Source: an uncultured Chloroflexota bacterium
GTDB taxonomy: Bacteria > Chloroflexota > Limnocylindria > Limnocylindrales > CSP1-4
Direction of reading: 5' to 3'
DNA: 33,920 nt
Assembly: GCA_903930745.1 (NCBI GenBank)
Contig: CAIYZX010000181.1
Location: 1-33,920, forward strand
Shown: positions 11,284 through 29,754 of the stretch, piece after piece
Numbering within the stretch: position 1 is the stretch's first letter
Layout: every line of letters begins with the position of its first letter
The notes under the pieces: generated by a model
Told to the model about the DNA's origin: nothing
The model's database searches: none
The model's input: only the letters and a program-made list of their open reading frames with translations
Translations under genes and position numbers: made by a program

Positions 11284-12171
11284 TCAAAGGACGGCGACCG
11301 GGTCCACCATCGAGCCCGTGGCGCCGCGGATCTTCACCGGCAGCGCGACGAACAGGAACTCGTAGATCCTCCGGCGGGCAAGCTCCTCGAGATCCAGGCT
11401 CTCCATGATGTAGATGCCGTTCTCGATGAGCAGCCTGGTGTGCACTGGCTGCGGATTGCCCTCCGGTCCCGGGTCGGGTGCCGGCTGGACCTCGAAGGTC
11501 TCCGTGTCCGACCCGGCGGCGACCACGCCTCGCTCAAGCATCCACTGGGCCGCGGACAGGTCGGGGCCGGGCGTCTTGTGCGCGGCCATCCTCTCGGCAT
11601 CGGGCCAGAGGCCCATGTACCCGGTGCGGATGACCACGACATCCCAGGGCCGGACGGCAACGCCTTGAGCTGCACAGATCGCCTCCATCTCGGCGGCATC
11701 GATCGGTGACCCCTTGGGCAGGCACTCGACGCCGCGGAAGGTGGGGGCATCGACGAGGACGCCGCGGGTGAAGAACGGCGGCATGCTGGAGGCATCCCCG
11801 TGCACCGGACCAAAGTCGGTCAGGTGCTCGTCCGCAGCGCCGCCACCGTACCAGTGCATGTCGTCGCCGATCGTCATGTGGGCGAGGGCATCCATGTGCG
11901 CTCCAGAGTGGCTCGTCGCCATGACGTACTCGGCCATGTAGCCGAGGCCCGCGTCATTCACCGGGCCCCACGGCTGGGCACCGGTCACCCGGATCCCGCG
12001 TGGCGTCCGGTAGTTGAGCACCTGGAAGGGCGGGTGGCCCGGGAACAGCGGCATGCCCGGGAACCTGACCGCACTGAGCGAGATCATCTCGCCGGCCTGG
12101 ACCAGGCGCGCCGCCTGGGCGACCTGCGAGGCAGGCATGTCCCCGATGGGGCCGAGCTGGGAACCACTCAC
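11284..12171 (-). CDS. Cyclase/kynurenine-formamidase-family metal hydrolase (PF04199)
   Basis: 295 residues. The family metal motif HxGxHxDxxxH is intact: His88, His92, Asp94, His98 in HSGAHMDALAH. Members hydrolyse amides, lactones or ring bonds using Mn or Zn (kynurenine formamidase, isatin hydrolase, polyketide cyclases). Next to a molybdenum hydroxylase a ring-opening hydrolase acting on its product is a natural reading, but the substrate is inferred. The start is GTG 12171, which shares bases with the TGA of the hydroxylase large subunit (GTGA) and has an AGGAGG about ten bases upstream; ATG 12138 is an alternative. The tight overlap implies translational coupling with the hydroxylase. 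Confidence 0.9.
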   Translation of the reverse strand: MSGSQLGPIGDMPASQVAQAARLVQAGEMISLSAVRFPGMPLFPGHPPFQVLNYRTPRGIRVTGAQPWGPVNDAGLGYMAEYVMATSHSGAHMDALAHMTIGDDMHWYGGGAADEHLTDFGPVHGDASSMPPFFTRGVLVDAPTFRGVECLPKGSPIDAAEMEAICAAQGVAVRPWDVVVIRTGYMGLWPDAERMAAHKTPGPDLSAAQWMLERGVVAAGSDTETFEVQPAPDPGPEGNPQPVHTRLLIENGIYIMESLDLEELARRRIYEFLFVALPVKIRGATGSMVDPVAVL

Positions 12172-14423
12172 CGCGCACCATCCTCCTGCAGCGCTCGCCA
12201 GACACGTTCGGGCGTCAGGGGCAGATCCCGGATCGGGACGCCGATCGCGTCGCGAACCGCGGCGCCGACAGCGGAGGCGACGCACAGCAATGCACCCTCG
12301 CTCATCCCCTTGGACCCGTACGGGCCGGGCCCGTCCTCGTTCTCGATGATCTCGCTCCGCAGCTCGACCGGCAGATCCATGATCGTCGGGATCCGATAGT
12401 CGATCGCGCCAAGGTTCCGCATCCGTCCACGTTCGTCGTAGATGCAGTGCTCCATCAGCGTGTGACCGAGGCCCATGATCGCCGCACCCTCGTCCTGCAT
12501 CCGGACGTGGAGCGGGTTGAGGGCCTTGCCCACATCGGAGACGGTGATGTGCTTCACCAGCGTCACGTCACCGGTCTCGCGATCCACGTCCGCCTCGATG
12601 ACGGTGCAGTTGAACTCGAAGAAGGCCGGTGCGCCGGAGAGTGGATGCGACGGATCGGCATCCTTGCGCACCTCGCCGAGTCCCGTGATCTCTCCGCCGA
12701 GCCTGCCGAGCCCGGACGCAAGCACCTCCCGAATGGTGAGCACGCGACCGTCGGCGACCCGGACGACGCCGGCGTCAACGATCACGTCCCCCACCTCGAC
12801 ACCCGCGATCCGCGCCGCCAGTGCACCCAGCTTCGCCTGCACGTCCCGGCAGGCCATGAGAACCGCGTTGCCCATCAGGACCGTGGACCGGCTCGCGGAG
12901 GTCTGCTGGTCGTACGGCACGATCGCCGTGTCACCCATGATGACCGTCACCCAGTCCATCGGCGCGCCGAGCTCCTGCGCCACGATCTGCGAGAACACGG
13001 TGCGGGCTCCCTGGCCCATGTCCGAGGTGCCCGCGTAGACGACAGCGCTGCCGTCTCCGAGGAGGCGCACGATCGCGTAGGACAGTCCCGTCGTCGGCCC
13101 CGACTTGATGCCGAGTGCGATGCCACGACCTCGGCCTGGAGGCAGCGGCGCGTCCCAGCCGCCTTCCGAGGCCGCACGGCGCACGGTCTGCTCCCAGTCA
13201 CCGTCGGCAGGGGTGTCGAACGGGATGAAGGCATCGCCCTTCCGCGCCAGGTTGAGCAGGCGGATGGCGAGCCGGTCCATGCCGAGCTCGAGCGCGCCCT
13301 GGTCGAGGTTGGACTCCACTGCCCAGTTGATCTGCGGGTTGCCGAAGCCGCGAAAGGCGGTGGACGGCACCGTGTGGCTCAGCACGCTCCGTGCCAGGAT
13401 CCTCACCGCGGGGATGTTGTACGGCCCGGCCGCCGGGTAGCTGCCCTTGGCAACGACGCGGTCGGCGATGTCCACGTAGGCACCGATCAGGTAGTCGGCC
13501 TCGATGTCCTGGAAGAGGATGTGGCCAGCAGCGTCGAAGCCGGTGCGAACATGCGACGCACAGGCCGCTCGGCGGACCGCCTGGAACGACTCCTCGAGCG
13601 TCAGGACGAGCCTGACAGGTCTACCCAGCCTGAGCGCGGCGAACACCACCGCGGGTTCGTGCTTGGCGTGCTGCTTGCCTCCGAACCCGCCGCCGGGATC
13701 CGGGGCGTGGACACGGACCTTGGAGAGCGGTAGGCCGACGAGGCCGGCAATCTGCTTCTGGAGCCAGTTGGGGTGTTGGATCGTGCTCCAGACCACGACG
13801 CCGTCGCCGTCGGGCGCAGCGATGAACGCGTGGGGCTCGATGGCGAACTGCGTGACGATGGGGAAGCTGTACCGGCCCTCGACGACGAGGTGCGCCTTCG
13901 CCTCCTCGGCCTCGACGTCACCCCAGCCAACGCGGTGCTCGGTGAGCACGTTGCCGAGCGCGAGGCCGGTGTCTCCACGAAGCGCCGGGTCCTGCACGAG
14001 GGGCGCACCCGGCGCGAGTGCCCCGGCGATCGTGAAGACCGCAGGCAGCTCCTCGTAGTCCACCTTGACGAGGGCCGCGGCCCGCTCGGCGAGCTCTCTC
14101 GTGTCGGCCACGACGATCGCCACCGGGTCGCCGTGGTACTTGGTCTCGCGCACCGCGAGCACCGGTCGATCGGCAACCTGTGGGCCATATCGCGGCATCG
14201 GGTCCGGCAGGTCGGCCGCCGTCATGACGAGATGCACGCCAGGGAGTGCGAGCGCCGCCGAGCCGTCGATCCCGACGATGCGGGCCCGCGCACAGTCGAG
14301 GTGGACAAGCTTCGCATGCAGGGCACCCGGCACGTGGAGGTCCGCCAGGTACGCCTGGGCTCCGGTGACCCGGTCAGTCCCGCCGACCCTGTTGGGGGAC
14401 TCCCCGATAGGCGACGCGCTCAT
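12168..14423 (-). CDS. Molybdenum hydroxylase large subunit (xanthine dehydrogenase family)
   Basis: Molybdopterin-binding subunit, 751 residues. Visible: a xanthine-dehydrogenase a/b-hammerhead region (RVTGAQAYLADL, then KYHGDPVAIVVA), the cofactor loop DPGGGFGGK (242-250), AFRGFGNPQ, and near the C terminus KGMSEG with Glu709 at the place of the catalytic glutamate (usually KGVGE). The active-site loop AFRGFG is the hydroxylase type, not the CO dehydrogenase form I loop, so this should hydroxylate an aldehyde or N-heterocycle with water as oxygen donor. ATG 14423 overlaps the FeS-subunit stop by ATGA; the stop overlaps the cyclase start by GTGA. Substrate not predictable. Confidence 0.94.
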   Translation of the reverse strand: MSASPIGESPNRVGGTDRVTGAQAYLADLHVPGALHAKLVHLDCARARIVGIDGSAALALPGVHLVMTAADLPDPMPRYGPQVADRPVLAVRETKYHGDPVAIVVADTRELAERAAALVKVDYEELPAVFTIAGALAPGAPLVQDPALRGDTGLALGNVLTEHRVGWGDVEAEEAKAHLVVEGRYSFPIVTQFAIEPHAFIAAPDGDGVVVWSTIQHPNWLQKQIAGLVGLPLSKVRVHAPDPGGGFGGKQHAKHEPAVVFAALRLGRPVRLVLTLEESFQAVRRAACASHVRTGFDAAGHILFQDIEADYLIGAYVDIADRVVAKGSYPAAGPYNIPAVRILARSVLSHTVPSTAFRGFGNPQINWAVESNLDQGALELGMDRLAIRLLNLARKGDAFIPFDTPADGDWEQTVRRAASEGGWDAPLPPGRGRGIALGIKSGPTTGLSYAIVRLLGDGSAVVYAGTSDMGQGARTVFSQIVAQELGAPMDWVTVIMGDTAIVPYDQQTSASRSTVLMGNAVLMACRDVQAKLGALAARIAGVEVGDVIVDAGVVRVADGRVLTIREVLASGLGRLGGEITGLGEVRKDADPSHPLSGAPAFFEFNCTVIEADVDRETGDVTLVKHITVSDVGKALNPLHVRMQDEGAAIMGLGHTLMEHCIYDERGRMRNLGAIDYRIPTIMDLPVELRSEIIENEDGPGPYGSKGMSEGALLCVASAVGAAVRDAIGVPIRDLPLTPERVWRALQEDGAR

Positions 14424-14896
14424 CGTCCGGCCTCCGAGGCGGCCAGGACTGCGTCCGTGATCTGCTCGTAGCAGGCGCAGCGGCACAGGTTTCCGGCCAT
14501 GCCCTCCGCGATCTCCTCCCGGGTTGGATGGGGGTTCAGGTCCAGCAACGCGTGGGCTGACATGAGCTGCCCGGGGATGCAGAAGCCGCACTGCACCGCG
14601 CCCTTGTCCAGGAACGAGGTCTGCAGCGTCGACAGGCGGCCATCGGCGGACGAGAGCCCCTCGACGGTGAGAATCACCGCCCCATCCGCCTCCACCGCGA
14701 GCACCAGGCACGAGTCCACGGCACGTCCGTCCACGATGACCGTGCAGGCGCCGCATTCGCCGACGAGGCAGCACTCCTTGGTTCCCGTCAGTCCGAGATC
14801 GTCGCGCAGGACATCGAGCAGGGTGTGCTGGGGTGCCACGTCCAGCACGCGTCGCCGGCCATTGACCGTCAGCTCGATGGGAAGGGTGAGCGTCAC
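14420..14896 (-). CDS. Molybdenum hydroxylase [2Fe-2S] small subunit
   Basis: 158 residues with both iron-sulphur clusters. The plant-ferredoxin-type cluster uses Cys43, Cys48, Cys51 and Cys63 (CLVGECGAC...C). The four-helix cluster uses Cys103, Cys106, Cys138 and Cys140 (QCGFC, GNLCRCACY). It passes electrons from the molybdenum centre to FAD. GTG 14896 gives the normal family length and has GGGGGAG seven bases upstream; the longer upstream frame overlaps the FAD-subunit gene and is not used. It begins one base after the FAD subunit stop and ends in an ATGA overlap with the large subunit, so all three subunits are made together. Confidence 0.95.
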   Translation of the reverse strand: MTLTLPIELTVNGRRRVLDVAPQHTLLDVLRDDLGLTGTKECCLVGECGACTVIVDGRAVDSCLVLAVEADGAVILTVEGLSSADGRLSTLQTSFLDKGAVQCGFCIPGQLMSAHALLDLNPHPTREEIAEGMAGNLCRCACYEQITDAVLAASEAGR

Positions 14897-14897
14897 G

Positions 14898-15764
14898 TCA
14901 CTGCTCCCCCGCCGCCAGGCGCTCGAGCGCGATGGCAAGGGCACGTCTGCCCAGGACACGCAGCATCGCGAGACGGTACTCGGGTCCGGCCCGCATTGAG
15001 GTCGCGGATGGGGAGGCATCGGCGAGGATCGTCGCAAGGACGTCGGCCCTGGCGGCATCCGGCGCGCCGGGGTCGGCCAGCACACCAGAGGTGTCCACCC
15101 GGACCAGCGGTCGCGGCCCCACGCTCCCAAAGGCGACCCTGGTCACGCCCGCTGCGTCCACTCCGCAGGCCAGCGTGACGGAGGCGAGATCATGACCCCG
15201 TCGGCGCGTTCGACGCTGGTGGGCACTGGCGATCCGGCTTGCGGGCATTGGGACCTCCACTGCAACCACCAGTTCGCCGGGGGCGAGCGTCGTGATCCCG
15301 GATCTGACGAACAGGTCGTCCACGGCGATCCGGCGCACTCCCGTCGGACCCGCTGCCACGACCCGGGCATCGTGCACGAGGAGCGGGGGTGCCGTGTCGG
15401 CGGCGGGCGAGGCATTGCAGATGTTCCCGCCCAGCGTCGCGCGATTGCGGATCTGGATGGAGCCGACAGCTGCGGCCGCCTCACCGAGCGCGTGGGCATG
15501 CCTGCGCACGATCGGACTGGCGGCGATCTCGGTCATTGTCGTTGTCGCACCGATCACGATCGTCCCGGCCTCGTTGCGGATCCCGGGCGCAAGCTCAGGG
15601 ACGCGCTTGATGTCCACCACGAGGGCAGGCGAGGCAGAGCCGTCGCGGAGCCGGATGATGAGATCGGTTCCACCGGCGAGCACGCGAGCACCAGGGCCGC
15701 GCTCGGCGAGGAGCGCGAGCGCGTCCGCGAGCGTGTTGGGACAGGCGTAGGCGAATGGTTGCAT
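14898..15764 (-). CDS. Molybdenum hydroxylase FAD-binding medium subunit
   Basis: 288 residues, normal length. FAD motifs AGGTDL (30-35) and TLGGNICNASPAAD (110-123) are intact, and the C-terminal SAHQRRTRRRGHDLASV matches the CO-dehydrogenase flavoprotein C-terminal domain. It takes electrons from the small subunit and hands them to an acceptor. ATG 15764 lies 22 bases after the HprK-like gene. The medium-small-large order on one transcript is the classical order for this enzyme class. Confidence 0.94.
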   Translation of the reverse strand: MQPFAYACPNTLADALALLAERGPGARVLAGGTDLIIRLRDGSASPALVVDIKRVPELAPGIRNEAGTIVIGATTTMTEIAASPIVRRHAHALGEAAAAVGSIQIRNRATLGGNICNASPAADTAPPLLVHDARVVAAGPTGVRRIAVDDLFVRSGITTLAPGELVVAVEVPMPASRIASAHQRRTRRRGHDLASVTLACGVDAAGVTRVAFGSVGPRPLVRVDTSGVLADPGAPDAARADVLATILADASPSATSMRAGPEYRLAMLRVLGRRALAIALERLAAGEQ

Positions 15765-15786: not shown

Positions 15787-16674
15787 CTAGAGGATCCTGT
15801 CGACCTCGTCCATCAGCACCTGCGGGCTGGAGGCACGGATGAAGTAGAAGGGACGCTGACAGAAGTCGTCAACGAACTGGGCGCGGCGGGCACGGAGCAC
15901 GTCGTTGTCCACCATCGGCATGACGTGCCCGGGAGCCAGCAGCTCGTTGGTGAGAAGGTAGTTCTGCAGGGAGTGCAGGAACTGGAAGCCCCGCTCGAAC
16001 GGGATGAGCTCGTTGGTCGCCGGGTCGAAGTTCCCATCGATCGCCGGGACGATCACGAGGTCGATGTTCGGAGTGCCCTCATACCTGCCCCACGTGGGCA
16101 TTGTGCCCCAGAACTTCTCGACGCCCTTGTTGGGGGCGGCCTTGTCCGAGCGCTCCGTGCCCTCGGTTCGCCTGACCAGGAACGTGTCCTCGGAGCCCGC
16201 CACGGCTCGCCCGTCATCGCTGATGACCGTCGTCTCCGATGCGACCTGGAGCGCGCCGCGCACGCCGGCCTCGATCAGGCCCATGCTCTTGCCGTGATTG
16301 GACTCGCCCCCCAGGAACAGGAACGTCTTGCCCCGGTAGTTCACGGCGGCGCTGTGGCTCGGGTGCTCCCCCTTGGCCTCCATGCGCAGCGCCAGCATCG
16401 CCACGATCGCCTTCTGCAGCGGTCCGGCCGGCCAGCTGCCGGTGAACGTCATCGTCCGCCCGTCGTAGGACGCGCGCTTCGCTCCGTCCTGGTTCCATAC
16501 GATGTCCGGCGCCTCGAGCGTCACCGCCGGGGAGATCCGCACGTCGGCGAGCCTGTAGTTCAGGAAGTTGAGATCGTCGAGCACGTGCTCGCGAGGCTCG
16601 CCGCCGTAGACGTCGATGCGGAGGCGGGCCTTGCCTGCCGAGAACTCCTCTGTAAGGCGCAGGTTGCTGTTCAT
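15787..16674 (-). CDS. HPr-kinase-like P-loop protein
   Basis: 295 residues, with the core resembling the HprK/P kinase C-terminal fold: SHSAAVNYRGKTFLFLGG leads to a Walker A GGESNHGKS (122-130), followed 20 residues later by VISDDG (Asp153, Asp154), the position of the VADD motif of HprK. The N-terminal 100 residues are unrecognised. HprK-type proteins bind ATP or pyrophosphate and phosphorylate, or remove phosphate from, a protein serine; some relatives act on small molecules. It shares an ATGA overlap with the GntR regulator upstream and sits 22 bases before the hydroxylase genes. I cannot tell whether it phosphorylates a protein of the operon, the imported substrate, or does something else. 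ATG 16674 has GGAAGGGA upstream. Confidence 0.7.
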   Translation of the reverse strand: MNSNLRLTEEFSAGKARLRIDVYGGEPREHVLDDLNFLNYRLADVRISPAVTLEAPDIVWNQDGAKRASYDGRTMTFTGSWPAGPLQKAIVAMLALRMEAKGEHPSHSAAVNYRGKTFLFLGGESNHGKSMGLIEAGVRGALQVASETTVISDDGRAVAGSEDTFLVRRTEGTERSDKAAPNKGVEKFWGTMPTWGRYEGTPNIDLVIVPAIDGNFDPATNELIPFERGFQFLHSLQNYLLTNELLAPGHVMPMVDNDVLRARRAQFVDDFCQRPFYFIRASSPQVLMDEVDRIL

Positions 16675-17426
16675 GGGATCCCTTCCGGTGTGTGAGCGGG
16701 TTCCGGCCCCGTGCCGGTTCGTGCGGCGGGTGAGGGCTGATGCTGATCGGCTTCGCCATCACCCGGTCCGGGCTCCAGCCAGAGCGTGGCCAGCATCGTC
16801 CGCGCGTCGCTGAAGTGGGTCCGGATGGCCGTCTCGGCGGCTGTCCCGTCGCGGCGTCGGAGGGCATCGAGCACAGGGCCGTGTAGCCCGGCGATCCGAC
16901 GCCGGTCCGAGCCGGCCACCGCGAGCGTGATGTACGTCCGGGAGTACGGCTCGAGGAGGCCCCAGACCCGCTTCAGCGTCTTGTTCCCGCTGACGTCCAC
17001 GAGATACCCGTGGAAGGCGGCGTCGGCAGAGGCCTCCCCCACCGTGTCTCCGGCCTCTGCGCCTGCGTGCATCGCGTCCAGGAGAACGCCGAGCCGCTCG
17101 ACGTCATCGTCGGTCAGCCTGGGCACCGCGAGACGTACAACGAGCGCCTCCAGTTCGGACCGGACGACATACGCCTCGAGAAGCTCATCACGAGAGGGAC
17201 GGCGGACCCGGGCGCCGCGAAACGCGGCGATCTCCACGACTCCGAGGGCCTCGAGATCTCGGAGGGCCTCGCGGACAGGCGCCTGGCTCGTCCCGAACTC
17301 GCGCGCCACCCGGGTCTCAATGATCCGGGACCCGGGCTGATAGCGGCCGTCAAGGATCGCCTCGAGCAGGCGATCCTTGACGGTGTCGGACAGGACGCTG
17401 CGTGAGATCGTCGTCTCGGCAGCCAT
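16671..17426 (-). CDS. GntR/FCD-family transcriptional regulator 1
   Basis: 251 residues. N-terminal winged helix (RLLEAILDGRYQPGSRI, then EFGTSQAPVREALRDLEALG) and C-terminal FCD ligand domain with the metal-site pattern Asp-x3-His (DAAFHGYL), LHGPVL and RTHFSD. A proline/glycine-rich tail of about 35 residues is extra. FCD regulators are usually repressors relieved by an organic acid or sugar acid. It lies inside the operon whose promoter carries a TCGATTATCGA site (26378-26388), which would give autoregulation. It is closely paralogous to the regulator at 30762-31433. ATG 17426 has GGAGAGGAG upstream. Confidence 0.93.
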   Translation of the reverse strand: MAAETTISRSVLSDTVKDRLLEAILDGRYQPGSRIIETRVAREFGTSQAPVREALRDLEALGVVEIAAFRGARVRRPSRDELLEAYVVRSELEALVVRLAVPRLTDDDVERLGVLLDAMHAGAEAGDTVGEASADAAFHGYLVDVSGNKTLKRVWGLLEPYSRTYITLAVAGSDRRRIAGLHGPVLDALRRRDGTAAETAIRTHFSDARTMLATLWLEPGPGDGEADQHQPSPAARTGTGPEPAHTPEGIP

Positions 17427-17453: not shown

Positions 17454-19187
17454 CTAAAGGATCGTCACGATGCCGGCGGTGCCGTCCACGCGGAGACGGT
17501 CGCCGGTCCTGATGGTCGAAGTGGCAACCGAGGTGCCCACGACGGCAGGGATCTCGTACTCGCGCGCCAGCACGGCCGGGTGCGAGACAGTACCGCCGGC
17601 GTCGGTCACGACGGCGGAGATGTGGCCGTAGAGGACCTGCCAGGCCGGGTTGGTCATCTGGCAGACGAGGATCTCGCCCTCGAGCAGGCTGTCGAACTCC
17701 GCCTCCGACATGACGACACGCGCCACGCCCTCAACGACGCCCGGCGAGCCGGCGATGCCCCTGACCTGGCCGGCCACCTGCACCTGCGAGCGGGTGAACT
17801 TGTCGGGGAAGCCCCAGAGGTTGAGGTACGGGAAGGCGAGCTGTGTCGCGGTGACCGTGCCGACCCAGTCACGCGGCTGCACCTTTTCGGCAGCCGCACG
17901 CTTGGCCTTGGCGGCGGCGACGATCGCCCTCCCGTCCATGGAGGACGGGTTGCCGATGAAGGCGCGCAGGTCGTTGTAGCGGAACAGGATGACGTCGTCG
18001 GGCGCGTCGAGGACGCCCTGTGCCACGAGCTTCTCGCCGACGGCGATGAGCACGAGGCGCACGTGGGCATTGGCACCCTGGTCGATGTAGAAGTGGTGGT
18101 CCGGGGTGAGCGGCGCCATCTTGAGGTTGATCTCGTTGGCGGCGCGCATCTCCTCGAGCGCCTCGCCCTCGAGGCCCTCGAGGATCTCCCTCGCGGCTGC
18201 GTCGATATCGGCCGCCAGGGTCGCGATGCGTGCCGGGTAGTCGTAGTCGGACGAGAACTGGTCCCGCACGAGCTGGACGACCGGGATCATGTCCTCCCGG
18301 AAGCTCGGGAAGATGAACTCATGGCTCCAGACGGCGTGCCAGCCGAACTCCTTCTGGTACGGCACGATCCGCTCGTCGATGAAGCGTCGACCGCGTGCGC
18401 TTGCCCTGAGGGAGGGCAGGATCTCGGCCCCGGACGCGGCGGCGAAGATCGCGGCCAGCTCGGCGTCGGCCTTGACCTCCTCCTTCGCCTCCCAGAGGGC
18501 CTTGATCTTGTCCCAGTTGCGGTCGTTGGCCGAGTTCTGGAGCCGGCCGAGCAGGGCCTCATTGACCCTGCCATGCGTCTTCTCCATGACCGCCCGAAGG
18601 TTGAGCGTCGCGCTCAGCTGCGCGAAGTTCAGCATCCAGTGGATCTTCCAGTGGCGGTCGTGCATGTCGATGGCGTCCTCGAGCAGGACGGCCACCTCGG
18701 CCAGGGAGAGCTGGTCCTTCTGGTCCAGCATGCCCTCGATGTAGTCGAAGTTGCGCTGCATCTCCGGGACGAAGCGGCTTCGCCACCAGTCGGTGAACTT
18801 GAGGCCGTACACCGGCAGGACTGCGCCCAGGTACGCGCCGATCCTGCCGGCGTATGCGTTGTCCTCGGGGACGATCGGGTGGGTCGAGTAGTTGTACTCC
18901 TGGGTCGCGACATCGACGCCGGCCTCGGCCGGGATCGCCGCCGTGTACAGGTAGCCGTTGACGTTCTTGTAGATCCAGTCCGACGCGAACGGCGTGCCGA
19001 AGCGGCGGAACATGTGGTCGCACGAGAGCCACCAGCCGCCGATGTCCTCGTACATCGGTGACAGGGGCTTGGGGCAGTGCAGGTCGTCGTAGACCCAGAA
19101 GAGATCCTTCTCGGTCTCGGACGTCCACTCCACGGGGAACGACTCGTCCCCGAGGAACTGGTCCAGGACTTCTTCCTTCAGCGGCAC
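17454..19187 (-). CDS. PEP-utilising His-swivel protein without ATP-grasp (rifampin-phosphotransferase/phenylphosphate-synthase-alpha-like)
   Basis: 577 residues. The C-terminal 100 are a PEP-utiliser mobile domain: GIAGSPGVVEGVARV, QMTNPAW, then VTDAGGTVSHPAVLARE with phospho-acceptor His536. Residues 1-475 resemble the substrate-binding middle domain of rifampin phosphotransferase-type enzymes, including the DDVILFRYNDLRAFIG stretch that precedes the swivel domain in that group. There is no ATP-grasp domain, so phosphate must come from a partner. Known two-subunit precedents such as phenylphosphate synthase split these functions. The PPDK-like protein in the same operon, which has an ATP-grasp but no acceptor barrel, is the obvious candidate partner (inference). 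GTG 19187 has GAGGAGG upstream. The substrate could be the imported compound. Confidence 0.82.
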   Translation of the reverse strand: MPLKEEVLDQFLGDESFPVEWTSETEKDLFWVYDDLHCPKPLSPMYEDIGGWWLSCDHMFRRFGTPFASDWIYKNVNGYLYTAAIPAEAGVDVATQEYNYSTHPIVPEDNAYAGRIGAYLGAVLPVYGLKFTDWWRSRFVPEMQRNFDYIEGMLDQKDQLSLAEVAVLLEDAIDMHDRHWKIHWMLNFAQLSATLNLRAVMEKTHGRVNEALLGRLQNSANDRNWDKIKALWEAKEEVKADAELAAIFAAASGAEILPSLRASARGRRFIDERIVPYQKEFGWHAVWSHEFIFPSFREDMIPVVQLVRDQFSSDYDYPARIATLAADIDAAAREILEGLEGEALEEMRAANEINLKMAPLTPDHHFYIDQGANAHVRLVLIAVGEKLVAQGVLDAPDDVILFRYNDLRAFIGNPSSMDGRAIVAAAKAKRAAAEKVQPRDWVGTVTATQLAFPYLNLWGFPDKFTRSQVQVAGQVRGIAGSPGVVEGVARVVMSEAEFDSLLEGEILVCQMTNPAWQVLYGHISAVVTDAGGTVSHPAVLAREYEIPAVVGTSVATSTIRTGDRLRVDGTAGIVTIL

Positions 19188-19244: not shown

Positions 19245-20072
19245 CTACGAGGCCTTCGAGATCCTCTTGAACCTCTTCATGTTCTCGGTGATGGCGATCT
19301 CGGTGGGGAGTCGCTCCATCGAGGAGGCACCGAAGAACCCGGCGACGCCGGTGGTGTGGGTGAGCACGTACTCGGCATCCTCGGGCTCGGCGATCGGACC
19401 GCCATGGCAGAGCACGATGATGTCCGGCTTCACGGCAACGGCAGCGTCGCGGATCGCCTGGACACGCTCGGCCGAGGCCTCGATCGTGAGAGCCGTGGTG
19501 GCGCCGATGGCACCCTTGGTGGTGAGGCCCATGTGCGCGACGATCACGTCGGCGCCAGCGGCGGCCATTGCCGCCGCCTGGTCGGTGTCGAAGACGTACG
19601 GCGTGGTGAGCAGACCGGCGTCGTGCGCCTGGCCGATCATCTCGACCTCGAGGCCGAACCCCATGCCGGTCTCCTCGAGGTTCTGCCGGAACTGTCCGTC
19701 GCACAGGCCAACCGTCGGGAAGTTCTGGACGCCGGAGAACCCGACCCGCTTGATCTCCTCGAGGAACACCGGCATCAGCCGGAAGGGGTCCGTGCCACAG
19801 ACACCGGCGAGGACCGGTGTCTCGCGGACGACCGGCAGCACCTCGGCGGCCATCTCCATGACGATCGCGTTGGCATCGCCGTAGGGCATGCAGCCCGCCA
19901 GCGAGCCGCGTCCGGCCATCCGGTAGCGCCCCGAGTTGTAGATGATGATGAGGTCGGCGCCGCCTGCCTCGGCGCACTTCGCGGAGAGACCTGTGCCCGC
20001 GCCGGCGCCCATGATCACGCCGCCCTGGGCCACCGTTGTGCGCAGCCGTGCAAGCGCCTGCTGCCCGTTCAT
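19245..20072 (-). CDS. PEP-hydrolase-family TIM-barrel protein (PF09370, Tm-1 C-terminal-domain-like)
   Basis: 275 residues, a complete small TIM barrel. Family signatures: [15 protein letters not shown] (21-35), IIYNSGRYR (43-51), [12 protein letters not shown] (180-191), [13 protein letters not shown] (221-233) and [12 protein letters not shown] (245-256). The family is named after a proposed phosphoenolpyruvate hydrolase, and its true reaction is poorly established. In plants and fungi the domain is fused behind the UPF0261 domain encoded immediately upstream here (19-base gap). ATG 20072 has AAGGAGG upstream. A decayed second copy of this gene lies at 27968-28250. Confidence 0.88.
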
Positions 20073-20091
20073 GCCAAGGACCTCCTTGTCC

Positions 20092-21321
20092 CTATGCCTG
20101 CTTCGCGGCCCACGCGCGGTAGTGCGCGTCGAGCTTGTCGGCCATGGCCGTCGCGAAGGCGGGATCGTTGATGTCGGCGGCCATCTCGACCACCTCGACG
20201 TCGGGCCGGAGACCGGCCTTCAGCTCCCGGATCAGGGCCGCATCCGCGGCCGCATCGTGGAAGGGGCCACCCGGGGTCGCGATCATGGAGACGCCGCCGA
20301 GAGGGATGAAGACCGTGAGGGGTCCCTTGGCCAGGTTGAGCTTGCGGGCGATGATCCGCCCGAGTTCGGCACACTCCTCCTCGGTGGTCCGCATCAACGT
20401 CACCGTGGCGTTGTGCACGTAGAGGTTGCGATCGTTGAACTGGGCCGGAACGGTCTCCCGCGGGCCGAAGTTGCACATGTCGAGCGCGCCGAGCGAGACG
20501 ACCTGCGGGATCCCCAGGGAGCCGGCCATCTCGAGCCGGTCGGGGCCTGCGGAGAGGACGCCGCCCACGAGCTCGTCCACGAGCTCCGTGGTGGTCGCGT
20601 CGAGGGCGCCCGTGATGAAGCCCGCCTTCATGAGGGCCTCCATCGACTGGCCGCCGGCACCGGTGGCGTGGAAGACGAGAACCTCGTAGCCGAGCGCCTC
20701 GAGCCGCTCGCGAGCTGTTGTGACGCAGGGGGTTGTGACGCCGAACATCGTGGCCCCGATGAGTGGCTTCCTCGCGATCCGGGACACGAAGCCGTCGGTG
20801 GCCTTCGCCATGCCCGCGATGGCGGCTGCGGCGTTGGTCAGGATCTTCTCCGACAGGCCGTTGATGCCGGCGATGTCCACCACCGAGTACATCATCGCGA
20901 TGTCGGAAGTCCCCACGTATGGGCGGGTGTCACCCGAGGCCATCGTGGAGACGATCAGCTTGGGCACGCCCACCGGCAGTGCCTGCATGGCCGCGGCAGC
21001 GATCGACGATCCGCCAGAGCCGCCGATGCCGAGTACTCCGTGGAGCCTCCCCTCGGCATACAGGCGCCTGGTCACCTCGACCGCGCCGCGCGTCATCGCG
21101 GCGACCGCGGGGCCGCGGTCGTGCGCTGCCACCAGGGCCGCACGGTCCACGCCCGCCGCTGCAGCAACCTCGTCGGCCGTCACGTCGGCAGCCGGCGAGT
21201 CGCTCATCACGCCCGCATCGACCACGACGACGTCGCAACCGCCTTCACGGACACGCTCGCGCAGGAACTCGTACTCGGGTCCCTTGGTGTCCAAGGTGCC
21301 GAGGAGCACGACGCTCGCCAT
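20092..21321 (-). CDS. Tm-1-like ATP-binding protein (UPF0261)
   Basis: 409 residues, the full family length. Signatures: [17 protein letters not shown] (8-24), the glycine-rich GIGGSGGSS (98-106), [14 protein letters not shown], and the C-terminal [15 protein letters not shown]. It is the bacterial counterpart of the N-terminal half of tomato Tm-1, the tobamovirus-resistance protein that binds viral replicase. The ancestral bacterial role is not established, though ATP binding is attributed to the family. ATG 21321 has AGGAGG upstream. It sits 12 bases after livF and immediately before its usual partner, so a two-subunit enzyme is likely. Confidence 0.9.
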
Positions 21322-21333
21322 GTGAAATGCCTC

Positions 21334-22134
21334 CTAGGGGTTCGCCGCAGGTGCGGCAGGAGTCTCGGTGTGCCCGATGTGGGTGCTCACGCCCAGGTAG
21401 CGTCGCTGGGCCACCTCGTCGTCGGCGAGGTCGTCAGACGTCGTCTCAAGCGCAATCCTGCCCGTGACCATGATCGCGATGCGCTCCGAGACGGCCGTGG
21501 CCACGCCAAGGTTCTGCTCAACAAGGAGCAGAGCCACTCCCTCGCGAGCGAGGTTGTGGAGCGTCTCCACCATGTGCTCGACGACGATCGGGGCAAGCCC
21601 CTCGGAGGGCTCGTCCATGATCAGGAGGCGTGGATTGAGGAGCAGTGCCCTGGCGATCGCGAGCATCTGCTGCTCGCCACCGGAGAGCTGGGTCCCGCCA
21701 TTGCGACGGCGGGCCTGCAGTGAGGGGAAGAGGTCGTAGACCTTCTTGATGGTCCAGCCATCGCTGCCCCCGCCGGACACCATCCGGAGGTGCTCGTCGA
21801 CCGACAGCGACGCGAAGACGCGCCGGCCCTGGGGGACGTAGCCGATCCCGGTGCGGGCGATCTCGTGCGGCTTGAGGCCGATCAGCTCCTGGCCATGGAG
21901 CCGGATCGAGCCGCCGAACGCGGGCACGAGGCCCATGATCGCGTTGCACAGGGTGGACTTGCCCATCCCATTTCGCCCGATCAGCGACAGCGGCCGCCGG
22001 TTCACCACGAGATCCACGCCCTGGAGGACGTGGCTCTGGCCGTATCGGACATCCAGGCCGGAGACCTGGAGCACGGGCACGGCCCCTGTCTCGGCCGGCA
22101 CATCCGGCTGGGGCGCGACAGCCTGCTCAGCCAT
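21334..22134 (-). CDS. livF: Branched-chain-amino-acid-type ABC transporter ATPase LivF
   Basis: 266 residues. Walker A GRNGMGKST, signature LSGGEQQMLAIARAL, Walker B LLIMDEPSEGLAP, and the LivF-typical VPQGRRVFASLSV. It powers uptake with LivG at the inner face of the membrane. I chose ATG 22134 (GGGAG six bases upstream), which overlaps the livG stop by eight bases; a TTG at 22158 is possible. The C-terminal tail of about 25 residues is Ala/Pro rich. Transporters of this class import amino acids, amides, urea and many aromatic or carboxylic compounds, so the substrate need not be an amino acid. Confidence 0.93.
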   Translation of the reverse strand: MAEQAVAPQPDVPAETGAVPVLQVSGLDVRYGQSHVLQGVDLVVNRRPLSLIGRNGMGKSTLCNAIMGLVPAFGGSIRLHGQELIGLKPHEIARTGIGYVPQGRRVFASLSVDEHLRMVSGGGSDGWTIKKVYDLFPSLQARRRNGGTQLSGGEQQMLAIARALLLNPRLLIMDEPSEGLAPIVVEHMVETLHNLAREGVALLLVEQNLGVATAVSERIAIMVTGRIALETTSDDLADDEVAQRRYLGVSTHIGHTETPAAPAANP

Positions 22135-22912
22135 TGCGGGCTCCCACTGCATGCCCAAGGTAGATGTCCTGGACCTGGCGGTTGTCCTGGATCTCGTCGG
22201 GGTTGCCCTCGACGAGCGGTGTGCCCTCGGCCATGACGGTCACCCGGTCCGCCACGGCGAGCGCGACGTCCATGTCGTGCTCAACGATGACGACGGTGAT
22301 GTCCCTCGGGAGCCCCTGGATCAACGAGGTGAGGTTGATGCGCTCAGCACGCGACAGGCCTGCGGCCGGCTCATCGAGCATCAACAGGCGTGGGTTGCCC
22401 GCGAGGGCCATTCCCACCTCCAGCTGGCGCTGCTGCCCATGCGAGAGTGCGCCCACCGGCGCCGCGAGGGCGTCGGCCAGCCCCACGATCGCTGCGATCT
22501 CCGCCGCCCGGACCCGTGACGGATCATCCGCCTTGGGTCTCGTGGGCCAGAAGCGTCGGCCCTGGACCCCCCGGATCGCCAGGAACAGGCTCTGCGCCAC
22601 GGTCAGACCCATGAACAGCTGCGATGTCTGGTACGTCCGGCAGACGCCGAGCCTGGTGCGCACGTACGGCGGCAGGTTCGTGACATCCGTGCCGAACAGC
22701 TCGACGCTGCCGGAGGTGGGCGGGAAATCGCCGGCGACCACGTTGAACAGGGTCGTCTTCCCGGCCCCGTTGGGACCAAGGATCGCTCGACGCTCGCCCG
22801 CGGCCACCTCCATGCTCGTGTCGTGCAGCGCCTGGAGGGCGCCGAAGCGCCGCCCCACACCCTGCAGACGCAGGGCGGGGGCAGACGCTTCGGCTGCCAT
22901 CCGATCGGTCAC
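22127..22912 (-). CDS. livG: Branched-chain-amino-acid-type ABC transporter ATPase LivG
   Basis: 261 residues. Walker A GPNGAGKTT (46-54), Q-loop region CRTYQTSQLFMGLTV, Walker B LLMLDEPAAGLS with signature LSHGQQRQLEVGMAL (His in place of the usual Gly after LS), and switch His in VIVEHDMD. The C-terminal NPDEIQDNRQVQDIYLG matches the LivG-type extension. It begins with GTG 22912, overlapping the stop of the binding-protein gene (GTGA); ATG 22900 is an alternative, and neither has a strong ribosome site, suggesting coupling. Confidence 0.92.
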   Translation of the reverse strand: MTDRMAAEASAPALRLQGVGRRFGALQALHDTSMEVAAGERRAILGPNGAGKTTLFNVVAGDFPPTSGSVELFGTDVTNLPPYVRTRLGVCRTYQTSQLFMGLTVAQSLFLAIRGVQGRRFWPTRPKADDPSRVRAAEIAAIVGLADALAAPVGALSHGQQRQLEVGMALAGNPRLLMLDEPAAGLSRAERINLTSLIQGLPRDITVVIVEHDMDVALAVADRVTVMAEGTPLVEGNPDEIQDNRQVQDIYLGHAVGARNG

Positions 22913-24195
22913 GGGCAGCTCGGGAAGTCGCGGCTCACCGGCTGGGCGAGATACGGGCTCGTCGCACCGAGGCCAAGCGTCTGGTCGACGCCGTCGGCCT
23001 TGGAGATGACGTTGTTCTGCAGGGTGCCGTCGGCAGCCTTCTGCACTTCGGTGACGTAGTTGGAGCTGATCGCCTGGCGGTTGCCGTCAAGGCTGACGTG
23101 TCCCGTCGGGCCATCGAACTCGACCTTGGCAAGGGCCGCCATGAAGGCTGCCTGCTTGTTGGAGAGGTCGCCCTTGACGGCCTGGAGGGCCTTGAGGACG
23201 CCGACCGTCTCGTTGTAGTAGCTGAGGGCAAAGAGTCCCGGGAACGGCAGTCCGTCCTTGAACTCCTTGTGGTACTCGGCCACGTAGTCGAGCCATGCCT
23301 TGTCGGTCGCGGTGTCGGCAGTCGGGCCGGCTGCGATCGTGCCGGCGAGGATGTCCTGGAAGGCACCCTTGGTCGCGAGCACCGACTGGTCCACCGTGAT
23401 GGAGCCGCCGATGAACTTGGCCTTGCCGCCAGCCTGGTTGTACTGGGTGAAGAAGTTGACCGCGTCCGAGCCGCCGAGCGCGACGTAGATCGCGTCGATG
23501 CCGGATGTCGGCAGGTTGGACACGACGGACGAGTAGTCCTTGGTGCCGAGCGGGACCCAGTTCTTCTGGACAACATGGCCACCGGCCGCGCAGAACTCGT
23601 ACATGAAGCCGCCAACCTGCGTGTACGGGAACGAGTAGTCCTCGGCCACGAGGGCGACGCTCTTGTAGCCCTTCTTCTCAAACGCGTACTTGCCGAGGCC
23701 GGCCATCCACTGGGCACCGTCGGTCGAGAAGCGGAAGAAGTTGGGGGCGGCATCGCGGAACGTCGTGTCCTGGGCCGCGGACGACCCGTTGACGAACGTC
23801 TTGTCCGGCACGGTCTTGGCGTAATCCTTGATCGCGAGACCCTCGTCACCGGAGAGAGGGCCGATCAGGATGTCGACGTTGTCCTGCTCGATGAGCTTCT
23901 TCGCCTTCTCGAGGGCAACGGCCGGCGTGGCGTCGGAGCCCTCCTTGAGCAGCTGGACCTGGAAGCCCTCGAACTGCCAGTTGCCGTTGTCGAGCTTCTT
24001 GCCGAGAGTGTTGAGCGCCTGCTCGACACCACGGAAGCCATCCTGACCGGGCACCGCGAACGGGCCCTCGAGGGTGGCGAGTCCGCCGATCTTGATGACC
24101 TTGTCACCGCCGCTCGAACCACCGCACCCGGCGGCGGCGATCGATGCAACGAACATCAGGGCGACGAGCCCGCGGCCCGTCCTCGTTCCGAACAT
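22909..24195 (-). CDS. ABC transporter substrate-binding lipoprotein (Leu/Ile/Val-binding type)
   Basis: 428 residues, periplasmic-binding fold type I. The signal peptide ends in a lipobox (IAAAG-C24), so the mature protein is lipid-anchored to the outer face of the membrane, usual for monoderm-like high-GC lineages. Family signatures: IKIGGLATLEGPFAVPGQDGFRGVEQALN and DNVDILIGPLSGDEGLAIKDY. ATG 24195 follows GAGAGGAGG and starts directly at the signal sequence. A 90-base gap separates it from livM, the largest in the operon, possibly with an internal processing site or promoter. The binding pocket cannot be read for substrate by eye. Confidence 0.93.
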   Translation of the reverse strand: MFGTRTGRGLVALMFVASIAAAGCGGSSGGDKVIKIGGLATLEGPFAVPGQDGFRGVEQALNTLGKKLDNGNWQFEGFQVQLLKEGSDATPAVALEKAKKLIEQDNVDILIGPLSGDEGLAIKDYAKTVPDKTFVNGSSAAQDTTFRDAAPNFFRFSTDGAQWMAGLGKYAFEKKGYKSVALVAEDYSFPYTQVGGFMYEFCAAGGHVVQKNWVPLGTKDYSSVVSNLPTSGIDAIYVALGGSDAVNFFTQYNQAGGKAKFIGGSITVDQSVLATKGAFQDILAGTIAAGPTADTATDKAWLDYVAEYHKEFKDGLPFPGLFALSYYNETVGVLKALQAVKGDLSNKQAAFMAALAKVEFDGPTGHVSLDGNRQAISSNYVTEVQKAADGTLQNNVISKADGVDQTLGLGATSPYLAQPVSRDFPSCP

Positions 24196-24285
24196 CAGTC
24201 CTCCTCTCAGCGATGGCCGCACAAGGTAGTGCGGGTCCACGCGACCTCCGTACCGGTATGTCCTGGTGGTGCCTCCTCCTGTTGA

Positions 24286-25407
24286 CTACCCTCCCGATGG
24301 GACATCGTCGCCCGCAGGCACGCCCGGAGCTCCAGGTGCTGTCACGGTGGATGCCGACGCGATGCCTGCCTCGGCCGCAAGTGGGTCCACGGCGCGGCGC
24401 CGTCCCCCGCCGCGATGGGTGAGCGCCACGAATGCACGATCGGCGAGGCCCACGATCCCGTTGGGCGCCACGAGCACGATCAGCAGGAAGCCAAGTCCGA
24501 TGAGCGTGTTGAACCGCTCGTCGAACGAGAAGCCGGCGATCGTGATGCTGCTCGCGAAGACCTTGATCAGCGTGTAGATGACGGCGCCCACGAACGCACC
24601 GATCGGATAGCCCAGGCCACCGAGGACGGCGACGATCAGGACTTCGATCGTGCGGCTGAGATCAACGATCCCGGGCGAGATGTTGCCGCGGTACCACGCG
24701 CCCAGGACCCCCGAGATGCCCGCCACGAAACCGCCGATGGCAAACAGGGCGACGCGATGGCCGCCAACGCGGTACCCCAGGGCGGCCATGCGGCGCGGAT
24801 TGTCCCGCACACCCTGGAACGTCAAGCCCAGCTGTGACCTCACCAGGTAGCGCAATCCGAGGTAGACCGCGGATGCCGTTCCGAGGCAGAGGTAGTAGAA
24901 GACGGGCGGATCCTGCCGTGGGAGGCCCGTGGGGCCCTCGATGCCGGCGAAGCCGATGTGGCCGCCGAAGACGTCGTAGTTCTGGAGGACGATGTAGTAG
25001 AAGCCCACGGACAGCGCGAGCGTGAGCATCAGGAAGTAGATGCCGTACGAGCGCGACGAGATGGCCCCGAACAGGGCGCCGAGCGCCGTGGCCAGTGCGA
25101 TGGCGATGAGTGCGGACGGGATCGCGGGCAGGCCCGCCCCGAGCGTCGATCCGGTGGCGTTCGTGCTGGGCTCGAGGCTCAGGAGCGCAACCATGTAGGC
25201 CGCGAAACCGGCAAGGGCGGCCTGGGCCAGCGAGGTCATCCCGCCATAGCCCGCCATGAAGACGAGGCTCAGAGCGGCGATGCCCAGGATCATCGCGTTG
25301 GCGCCGATGGACAGCACCCAGAACCGGGGCATCACCTGCGGGTAGATGACCAGGACCACGAGGACCGCCAGCGTCGCGATGCCCTGGCGGCTGCGCACCC
25401 AGGTCAT
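24286..25407 (-). CDS. livM: ABC transporter permease LivM
   Basis: 373 residues with about eight to ten hydrophobic segments. Family features: NAMILGIAALSLVFMAGYGGMTSLAQAALAGFAAY, the cytoplasmic EAA-like loop near FQGVRDNPRRMAALGYRV, and IVAVLGGLGYPIGAFVGAV. The last 45 residues form a Pro/Ala-rich hydrophilic tail. It forms the membrane channel with LivH. ATG 25407 overlaps the livH stop by ATGA. Confidence 0.94.
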   Translation of the reverse strand: MTWVRSRQGIATLAVLVVLVIYPQVMPRFWVLSIGANAMILGIAALSLVFMAGYGGMTSLAQAALAGFAAYMVALLSLEPSTNATGSTLGAGLPAIPSALIAIALATALGALFGAISSRSYGIYFLMLTLALSVGFYYIVLQNYDVFGGHIGFAGIEGPTGLPRQDPPVFYYLCLGTASAVYLGLRYLVRSQLGLTFQGVRDNPRRMAALGYRVGGHRVALFAIGGFVAGISGVLGAWYRGNISPGIVDLSRTIEVLIVAVLGGLGYPIGAFVGAVIYTLIKVFASSITIAGFSFDERFNTLIGLGFLLIVLVAPNGIVGLADRAFVALTHRGGGRRRAVDPLAAEAGIASASTVTAPGAPGVPAGDDVPSGG

Positions 25408-26282
25408 GCCGGTCGCCCCAGCAGTCCCTGCGGACGGATCGCAAGGACGCCGGCCATGATCACGAACGTGATGAAGATCGAGTAGGTCGGGGCGTAGAAG
25501 AGGCCGATCTGCTCGGACAGGCCGATGATCAGCGCCCCGATGACCGCGCCTCCGAGGCTGCCCATGCCACCGACGATGACCACCACCAGTGAGCTGAGCA
25601 GGTATCGGCCGTCCTCGCTCGGCGAGATCGACAGGGCCGTTGCCCCCACGACCCCTGACAGTCCGGCAAGTCCCGCTCCCAGCCCGAAGACGAAGAGGAA
25701 CACCCGGGAGACGTTCACTCCGAGGGCCGAGAGCATGTCCCGGTCATCGATCCCCGCCCGGATGTACCAGCCGATCCGGGTCCGGTTCAGGACCAGCCAC
25801 AGGGCGCCATAGACGGCTGCCGCCAGGGCGATGATGAACAGCCGGTAGGCGGAGTACGTGCCGTTGACGACAAACGGGATTGCGACCGAACCCGCGGCAA
25901 AGGGCGGTGGCTCGATCTGGTAGGTCAGACCTCCGTACTTGGCGAGCAGCAGGTCCGCGATGATGATCGAGAGCCCGATCGTGACGAGCGCCTGGCGCAG
26001 ATCCTGCCCTGCCATCCGCGAGAGCAGTCCAAGGTGGATGACGATGCCGACCACGGCCACCGCAGCGAAGCCGATCACGAGCGCTGCGAACCAGTTGCCG
26101 GTCGCCTCGTAGGCGCTGACTCCAACATAGGCACCGAGCATGTACAGCGAGCCGTGCGCCATGTTCGTGGTGCGCATCAGGCCGAAGATCAGCGTGAACC
26201 CGCTTGCGACGATGAAGTACAGGGCGGCAAGCGTGACACCGTTGACCAGGACCGTCAGGAAGTCGACGAGCGCCTTCGGCAA
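25404..26282 (-). CDS. livH: ABC transporter permease LivH
   Basis: 292 residues, about eight membrane segments. Family features: ASGFTLIFGLMRTTNMAHGSLYMLGAY at the N terminus and VVVIVGGMGSLGGAVIGALIIGL near the C terminus. The start is TTG 26282 with GGGAG upstream. First gene of the long minus-strand operon; its leader of about 105 bases begins at the operator-controlled promoter at 26395-26424. Confidence 0.94.
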   Translation of the reverse strand: MPKALVDFLTVLVNGVTLAALYFIVASGFTLIFGLMRTTNMAHGSLYMLGAYVGVSAYEATGNWFAALVIGFAAVAVVGIVIHLGLLSRMAGQDLRQALVTIGLSIIIADLLLAKYGGLTYQIEPPPFAAGSVAIPFVVNGTYSAYRLFIIALAAAVYGALWLVLNRTRIGWYIRAGIDDRDMLSALGVNVSRVFLFVFGLGAGLAGLSGVVGATALSISPSEDGRYLLSSLVVVIVGGMGSLGGAVIGALIIGLSEQIGLFYAPTYSIFITFVIMAGVLAIRPQGLLGRPA

Positions 26283-28522: not shown

Positions 28523-28891
28523 ATGATCAAGCGCGTCGCCCGAGAGGACGCGGTCAAGGTTCCGCTCCCCGGTCGCGTCTGGAACTCCTACATCGCTCCC
28601 GGCGACGGCACGTCGGATCTCGTCTCGCTTGGCGTGTCGGTCTACCCCCCGGGGTCCCGCCCAAAAGGCCACGTGCATCCCGCCGAGGAGGAGACCATCT
28701 ACTGCGCCCGGGGTCGTGGCCGCATCGTGACCTCCCAGGGGACGGCGGACATCGAGCCCGGGGTCGTGGTGCACGTGCCGCCCGGCGTCTTCCATGCGAC
28801 CGAATCGGACGGCCCGGAGGAGATGGAGCTGCTGTGCCTCTTCACGCCCCCGGTCGTGTCGGGCTCGTATGAGAGGAAGGAACCCACGTGA
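28523..28891 (+). CDS. Cupin-domain protein 2
   Basis: 122 residues, one cupin barrel. Metal ligands likely His50, His52 and Glu57 (GHVHPAEEETIY) and His91 (VFHATES). Only weakly similar to cupin 1 in sequence, so the two are not obviously a recent duplication. ATG 28523 has GAGG at 28512-28515. Its stop overlaps the GTG of the transketolase N-terminal subunit (GTGA), so it is translated with that enzyme and may act on its substrate, for instance as an isomerase (inference). Confidence 0.87.
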   Translation: MIKRVAREDAVKVPLPGRVWNSYIAPGDGTSDLVSLGVSVYPPGSRPKGHVHPAEEETIYCARGRGRIVTSQGTADIEPGVVVHVPPGVFHATESDGPEEMELLCLFTPPVVSGSYERKEPT

Positions 28892-29754
28892 GCCCCGAAC
28901 GATCCGAGATCGCGCGGCTCGAGGAGGCAGCCCGCCGGATCCGGATAGAGCTGGTGCGCGCCGTCAACCACGCGAGGGCAGGGCACCTCGGCGGCCCACT
29001 GTCGGCTGCCGACATGCTTGCCGCGCTCTACTTCCGGGTGCTTCGCATCCGGCCGGACGATCCCGCGTGGCCGGATCGGGACCGATTCATCCTCTCAAAG
29101 GGACATGCCTCGATCGCCCTGTACGCTGCCATGGCGCTGCGAGGCTACTTCCCGGTGGAGGAGCTGCTGACGTTCGATGCGGCACACTCACGCCTCCAGG
29201 GTCACCCGGACATGACTCGCCTGCCGGGCCTGGACATGTCCAGTGGCTCGCTGGGCATGGGCATCTCGGCTGCGATGGGGATCGCGCTGGGAGCCCGGCT
29301 GACCGCACGCGATGTCCGCTCGTTCGTGATGCTCGGCGACGGCGAGTGCCAGGAGGGCGAGGTCTGGGAGGCGGCGATGGCGGCCGCGCGCTACCACCTC
29401 GACAACCTGGTCGCCATCGTGGACCACAACAAGCTCCAGCAGTACGGCTGGCCCGGCGACGGACCCGACGGCCGGACGCCCCCGCAGGCCCCTGGCGAGA
29501 TGGCCGGCAAATGGGCCGCCTTCGGCTGGCGGGTGCTCGAGGTGGACGGCCACGACATGGCGGAGATCATGCGCACGCTCGATTTGGCCGTCCAGGGTGA
29601 CGGCAGGCCCACGGTCGTGATCTCGCACACGGTCAAGGGCAGGGGTGTCTCCTACATGGAGGGTCGCTACTTCTGGCACACCCGGGCGATCAGGCCAGAG
29701 GAGTTCGACCTCGCAATGGCCGATCTCGGCGCAGACGCGGGAGCCGGACGATGA
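28888..29754 (+). CDS. Transketolase-like enzyme, N-terminal (ThDP-binding) subunit
   Basis: 288 residues. AGHLGGPLS (31-39), SKGHASIALYAA (70-81), and the thiamine diphosphate motif starting GDGECQEGEVW (150-160) and ending at Asn181 (VDHNK). It corresponds to the pyrophosphate-binding half of transketolase and needs the partner gene that follows. Split transketolases are common in sugar and sugar-acid catabolic clusters, where they act on non-standard ketose phosphates. GTG 28888 overlaps the cupin stop; its stop overlaps the next start by ATGA. Confidence 0.93.
   Translation: MSPERSEIARLEEAARRIRIELVRAVNHARAGHLGGPLSAADMLAALYFRVLRIRPDDPAWPDRDRFILSKGHASIALYAAMALRGYFPVEELLTFDAAHSRLQGHPDMTRLPGLDMSSGSLGMGISAAMGIALGARLTARDVRSFVMLGDGECQEGEVWEAAMAAARYHLDNLVAIVDHNKLQQYGWPGDGPDGRTPPQAPGEMAGKWAAFGWRVLEVDGHDMAEIMRTLDLAVQGDGRPTVVISHTVKGRGVSYMEGRYFWHTRAIRPEEFDLAMADLGADAGAGR

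Follow-up and report, generated by a model that had tools for sequence, protein, structure and literature searches.

A swivel protein and a truncated PPDK in one gene run of an uncultured Chloroflexota bacterium: a proposed two-component small-molecule dikinase

HpeHI, CreHI and PpsAB are two-component dikinases; their HpeH, CreH and PpsA subunits carry the swivel motif T/SxxGGxxxH, and these phenolic kinases resemble PEP synthase (PMC12167813). By the precedent of PpsAB and HpeHI, the ATP component passes the beta-phosphate to the swivel histidine and from there to the substrate. HpeH, CreH and PpsA share about 45% identity. The recognition of two-component small-molecule dikinases as a subfamily dates only from 2025, and the ATP subunits then reported are of the PEP-synthase type. 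Here we describe a gene run in which a protein resembling HpeH and PpsA, named P0001, is encoded together with a truncated PPDK, named P0002. The window is the whole stretch of 33,920 nucleotides that was analysed, and P0001 is read in it from a GTG start codon at 19187 on the minus strand, the plus-strand frame over the same interval (17454-19187) being broken by a stop. The features of the run are as follows.

9093..11231, minus strand: P0002, proposed ATP component, 712 aa (PF01326, PF00391, NF004531)
9096..9689, minus strand: C-terminal winged-helix-like domain (tail) of P0002, aa 515-712 (homology to separate tail genes elsewhere)
11284..12285, minus strand: cyclase-family (PF04199) metal hydrolase, 52 bp before P0002
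12168..14774, minus strand: molybdenum hydroxylase Mo subunit, start overlong
14420..15130, minus strand: molybdenum hydroxylase 2Fe-2S subunit, start overlong
14898..15764, minus strand: molybdenum hydroxylase FAD subunit
15787..16674, minus strand: P0003, 295 aa, PEPCK/HPr-kinase-like P-loop protein (predicted fold)
16671..17426, minus strand: GntR/FCD regulator, 27 bp after P0001 (Pfam)
17454..19187, minus strand: P0001, proposed substrate-domain and swivel component (HpeH/PpsA-like), 577 aa (Pfam, model, fold search)
17457..17765, minus strand: swivel (phosphohistidine) domain of P0001, about aa 475-577 (PF00391)
17766..19187, minus strand: substrate domain of P0001, aa 1-474, with a fold like the rifampin-binding domain of rifampin phosphotransferase (model and fold search, alignment A2)
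19245..20072, minus strand: PEP_hydrolase (PF09370) TIM-barrel protein, 57 bp before P0001 (Pfam)
20092..21321, minus strand: UPF0261 (Tm-1-like) protein (Pfam)
21334..26282, minus strand: branched-chain-amino-acid/urea-type ABC transporter (two ATPases, a binding protein at 22909-24240 and two permeases)

From the ABC transporter (26282) to P0002 (9093), all genes of this minus-strand run are co-directional with gaps of at most 57 bp, so that a single transcript from the transporter to P0002 is plausible. The nearest NCBIfam models for the Mo subunit were 4-hydroxybenzoyl-CoA reductase alpha and XdhA, both scoring below cut-off. With its molybdenum hydroxylase, cyclase, PEP_hydrolase, UPF0261, ADH, SDR and transketolase subunits, the gene content points to the breakdown of a hydroxylated ring or polyol, though none of these genes is decisive. 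The transketolase is split into N and C subunits at 28888-30695 on the plus strand, adjoining a second GntR gene, and is kept near the kinase cluster in many relatives. UPF0261 and PEP_hydrolase each correspond to one half of the plant Tm-1-like protein (PMC5028733), and their genes (19245-21321, minus strand) adjoin kinase genes in many loci; we found no paper treating UPF0261, PEP_hydrolase and PEP-utilizing enzymes together.

The sole Pfam match in P0001 was PF00391 (PEP-utilising mobile domain) at residues 503-572 (E 6.9e-22), while residues 1-475 gave zero Pfam matches and the Pfam scan placed no ATP-grasp domain (PF01326) anywhere in the chain. The swivel motif reads TDAGGTVSH, and its histidine, His536 (codon 17582-17580), is invariant in all 47 relatives of alignment A2. 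The same alignment defined an invariant polar set in the substrate domain (H37, H58, R61, R62, D70, K74, D171, D174, R178, H183, H289, E290, H364, H365, D369 and R377), and was also the input for an AlphaFold2 model of P0001 (pLDDT 89.8, pTM 0.88). In a fold search with this model, the top six PDB matches were all Listeria rifampin phosphotransferase (RPH), the best being 5fbu (E 2.5e-18, TMq 0.62, ~600 aligned columns); the best PDB match at the sequence level was again RPH, over residues 377-577 only. An R. leguminosarum relative encoded in an Hpe-like cluster also aligned with P0001 over 593 columns (25% identity, E 1e-38). The sequence-only reading of this gene had described a large substrate domain followed by a C-terminal His domain, and likened it to phenylphosphate synthase alpha or the last two domains of RPH. 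Both descriptions are borne out, the first by the RPH fold over the whole chain with PF00391 at its C-terminus, and the second by that fold combined with the long Hpe-like alignment. It is reasonable to suppose that a hydroxyl-bearing small molecule is phosphorylated via P0001. An Hpe-like cluster on R. leguminosarum plasmid pRlBT01c (L087) consists of a swivel protein, an ATP-grasp protein, a biotin carboxylase and a HAD hydrolase.

A self-search of the genome with P0001 found a second swivel at 9867-10193, which lies in P0002, 6.2 kb downstream of P0001 in the same run of minus-strand genes. P0001 had earlier been taken as an orphan without an ATP-binding partner; this holds for the P0001 chain and for its flanking genes, but it fails for the cluster, and the orphan status falls with it, because the ATP-grasp gene of P0002 is present in the same run. 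P0002 consists of a PPDK-type ATP-grasp domain (about aa 20-330), a swivel (about aa 345-460) and then the winged-helix-like tail, and matched PF01326 (PPDK_N) with E 1.9e-45 and PF00391 (PEP-utilizers) with E 1e-22; Pfam gave no match to the PEP/pyruvate TIM barrel. Against Clostridium symbiosum PPDK the E value was 2.6e-122. With the NF004531 model of truncated PPDK it scored 513.4 bits, above the cut-off of 456, and with the TIGR01828 model of full PPDK it scored 532 bits, below the cut-off of 843. K25, R94, D276, E278, Q290, R292 and His409 (codon 10007-10005) align with the catalytic residues of PPDK, which we take to be K22, R92, D321, E323, Q335, R337 and His455, respectively. All of these P0002 residues are conserved in 20 of 20 relatives except K25 (19 of 20), and the N-terminal ATP loop, VRSGAPRSMPGMMDTILNLGL, is of the PPDK type.

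We found 180 relatives of P0001 and fetched 80 loci with their flanks, among which GntR, molybdenum hydroxylase and cyclase genes are kept, often with UPF0261, PEP_hydrolase and a transporter. A stand-alone HpeI-type ATP-grasp gene adjoins P0001 in Thermogemmatispora, Thermoleophilia, Rhodobacteraceae and some Acidimicrobiia, as well as in the T. roseum cluster. The sequence-only reading had named, as a finding that would count against it, a fused or adjacent ATP-grasp gene that every close homologue has and this stretch just lacks; an adjacent HpeI-type gene turned up in distant relatives, and the close relatives, like the window itself, carry P0002 in its place. Whole-genome searches of 37 P0001 genomes showed that 13 have HpeI in the P0001 locus and P0002 nowhere in the genome. 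P0002 is present in 22 of the remaining 24, four times as a fragment (G003, G007, G014, G028), and an HpeI-type stand-alone gene was found in none of these 24. Neither partner was found in two of the 37 (G012 and G035), whose assemblies may be incomplete.

The same pattern appeared when 201 Chloroflexota genomes, sampled without bias and at least 85% complete, were searched with P0001 (E up to 1e-60) and with the P0002 tail (query aa 515-712). P0001 occurs in 21 of these genomes and the tail in 10, all within those 21, giving a Fisher p of 1.5e-11 for their association that is uncorrected for kinship. In each of the other 11 P0001 genomes, a stand-alone frame of the HpeI type (289-383 aa) lies close to P0001, so that no P0001 genome has both partners (0/21) and none has neither (0/21). 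Within the window's own family, nine genomes carry P0001 together with P0002 and four carry neither. By parsimony, the P0001 tree needs two changes between the HpeI and P0002 labels, and the grouping of HpeI in one clade was not rejected (p-AU 0.57), which does not uphold repeated independent swaps; given that the swap may have occurred once or twice only, the genome counts are not independent events. The window's own assembly (89.9% complete) encodes three PPDK_N proteins, namely a full PPDK frame (992 aa), P0002 and a fused 888-aa frame. Among its four swivels, P0001 is the only one without an ATP-grasp domain, and among its ATP-grasp proteins only P0002 has no recognised substrate domain. 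An HpeI-type ATP-grasp subunit (about 350 aa) was found nowhere in this genome.

Direct observation covers the domain make-up of P0001 and P0002, their conserved catalytic residues and their pairing in genomes. On the genomics of their pairing, we consider it probable that the two form a two-component small-molecule dikinase, with P0001 providing substrate binding and a swivel and P0002 serving as the ATP component. The two proteins would then act on each other, with a metabolite of the cluster as the likely acceptor. P0002 would bind ATP in its PPDK-type ATP-grasp domain, after which a phosphohistidine would arise, and a small molecule bound in the RPH-like domain of P0001 would receive the phosphoryl group on a hydroxyl (or enol). 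Because the swivel histidine is kept in both proteins, three routes are possible: the P0001 swivel could dock directly on P0002, the phosphoryl group could be relayed from histidine to histidine (P0002 to P0001), or the swivel of P0002 itself could reach into P0001. The PPDK ancestry of P0002 leads us to predict that, unlike HpeHI and PpsAB, the pair would use phosphate and release pyrophosphate. Against the pairing counts that P0002, having its own swivel, could serve another acceptor.

An alternative, which we regard as unlikely, is that P0002 is a regulatory histidine kinase with a DNA-binding-like tail and stands apart from P0001 catalysis, P0001 being charged by P0003 instead. P0002 would then be like VadK (Rv1127c), a truncated PPDK that autophosphorylates and is reported to regulate the methylcitrate cycle (PMC13400623). 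The P0003 gene lies between the GntR and Mo-hydroxylase genes, directly upstream of the FAD gene, in the slot that the HpeI gene takes in relatives. P0003, a conserved protein, gave no Pfam match; its model (pLDDT 87.9) matched PEP carboxykinase (E 2.7e-7, prob 1.00, TMq 0.44) and then HPr kinase, sequence profiles agree weakly with this fold, and the P-loop reads GGESNHGKS as against GxSGTGKTT in PEPCK. Nucleotide binding is plausible from the predicted fold. P0003 occurs in 17 of the 37 genomes and shares neither a locus nor a genome with HpeI, and it was first attractive as an ATP-grasp replacement because the two never share a locus. However, in the whole-genome searches the gap proved to be filled by P0002 and not by P0003. 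P0003 is missing from seven genomes with P0001 and P0002, so that it is not a general ATP source, whereas P0002 went undetected in only two genomes with P0001 and P0003 (G012 and G035). P0003 also stays with the Mo-hydroxylase genes where P0001 is elsewhere (L024, L030, L072), and we know of no member of the PEPCK/HprK fold that charges a swivel histidine. P0003 is optional in P0002-type clusters. A Diaphorobacter protein (P0004) considered as a P0003 homologue showed no homology to it.

That P0001 lacks an ATP-grasp domain of its own, and that HpeH on its own transferred the phosphate of 4-phosphoacetophenone to acetovanillone (PMC12167813), would agree with P0001 being by itself a phosphotransferase between two small molecules, or being charged by the fused 888-aa protein, the full-length PPDK or another donor elsewhere. 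By contrast, a dedicated ATP-grasp partner was present in all 21 sampled P0001 genomes, and four of four same-family genomes without P0001 also lack P0002, and we give this explanation little credence. It is very improbable that P0001 is no longer an enzyme and serves as a phospho-carrier or regulator with the GntR protein encoded directly after it, since its substrate domain keeps dozens of invariant polar residues, its histidine is invariant among the relatives aligned and its clusters contain catabolic genes.

P0002 as the proposed ATP component of P0001 can be set beside versions in which its parts are separate genes. The P0002 tail is homologous to a stand-alone 206-aa Diaphorobacter protein (36%, E 8e-31), the gene of which lies between those of a substrate-swivel protein and a truncated PPDK (44% against P0002). 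The tail is likewise a separate gene adjoining a truncated PPDK in Mycobacterium and Rhodococcus, adjoins an ATP-grasp gene in 25 of 30 Actinomycetes loci, and was found in 22 plasmid records by a plasmid search. Genes for all three parts, the substrate-swivel protein, the tail protein and the truncated PPDK, lie together in Diaphorobacter, M. branderi, M. avium, R. pyridinivorans and Rhodococcus LW-XY12, and in one further actinomycete genome (L159); Mycobacterium plasmids are among these three-gene versions. However, most actinobacterial pairs of truncated PPDK and tail have no swivel protein within 10 kb, so that a swivel protein does not stand beside every truncated PPDK and a general pairing is not proved. 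In three actinomycete loci (L180, L181, L182), the tail protein adjoins proteins of 420-460 aa in which a PEP-synthase-type ATP-grasp is fused to a swivel without a substrate domain between them. A 'PEP-utilizing enzyme' of R. opacus B4 (793 aa, L124:3177-5558) has a weak N-terminal swivel match and a P0002-type tail at its C-terminus.

The NF004520 'sugar epimerase family' model, which we take to represent the Rv2047c family, matches P0001 (9.2e-18). Rv2047c of M. tuberculosis joins an epimerase to a PEP-utilising domain; its gene shares an operon with pks12, and pks12 makes mannosyl phosphomycoketide. An rv2047c deletion is available in the attenuated strain mc2 6230. In TnSeq with different iron sources, rv1127c, rv2047c and pks12 were needed with mycobactin but not with haem (PMC7058343), a likeness that is suggestive only, given that mmpL5, murI and others share the profile. 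As a lead, we suggest that Rv2047c has its ATP half in VadK, and the common TnSeq profile of the three genes suggests that VadK could power mycoketide phosphorylation through Rv2047c; we found no paper naming VadK in this role. More broadly, and with somewhat more doubt than belief, truncated PPDKs with a winged-helix-like partner or tail may widely supply the ATP half of multi-component small-molecule dikinases, with an 'orphan' swivel protein as the acceptor half. These would be P0002 and P0001 here, and in M. tuberculosis could be VadK, Rv1126c and Rv2047c; the set would phosphorylate a lipid alcohol, for instance mycoketide, in place of, or in addition to, a protein kinase role. If true, a version powered by truncated PPDKs would give a chemical role to these common but puzzling proteins, provide each such 'PEP-utilizing enzyme' with a testable ATP partner and predict a phosphate use different from that of PEP-synthase-type dikinases. 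It would also offer a second hypothesis for VadK, which is reported to be required for M. tuberculosis virulence in mice.

Compared with known systems, P0001 is like RPH in the fold of its substrate domain and swivel, but RPH has its ATP-grasp within the same chain, and the RIF_Ptrans_rph model scored P0001 at only 105.9 bits, far below the cut-off of 999. RPH binds rifampin mainly by hydrophobic contacts, whereas the substrate domain of P0001 presents a conserved polar set. P0002 keeps the ATP-grasp catalytic residues and swivel histidine of PPDK but is without the PEP/pyruvate TIM barrel, and a separate full-length PPDK is encoded in the same genome. It is like VadK and other truncated PPDKs in exceeding the NF004531 cut-off and in having ATP-grasp and swivel without the pyruvate barrel. 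By contrast with VadK, which is described as a regulatory histidine kinase, it carries a fused tail, encoded elsewhere by a gene of its own, and its occurrence is strictly tied to that of a swivel protein. The window genes that were scanned included no Hpe-type biotin-carboxylase or phosphatase gene. Like HpeH, CreH and PpsA, P0001 combines an RPH-like substrate domain with a C-terminal swivel whose TDAGGTVSH fits T/SxxGGxxxH, and like HpeHI, CreHI and PpsAB, the pair has its ATP-grasp in a separate protein within a catabolic gene cluster. The ATP component of those systems is a free-standing PEP-synthase-type ATP-grasp (about 350 aa) that lacks a swivel, whereas P0002 is PPDK-type and has its own swivel and an extra tail. 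The PPDK type of this proposed ATP half is the main departure of P0001 and P0002 from the known two-component dikinase family.
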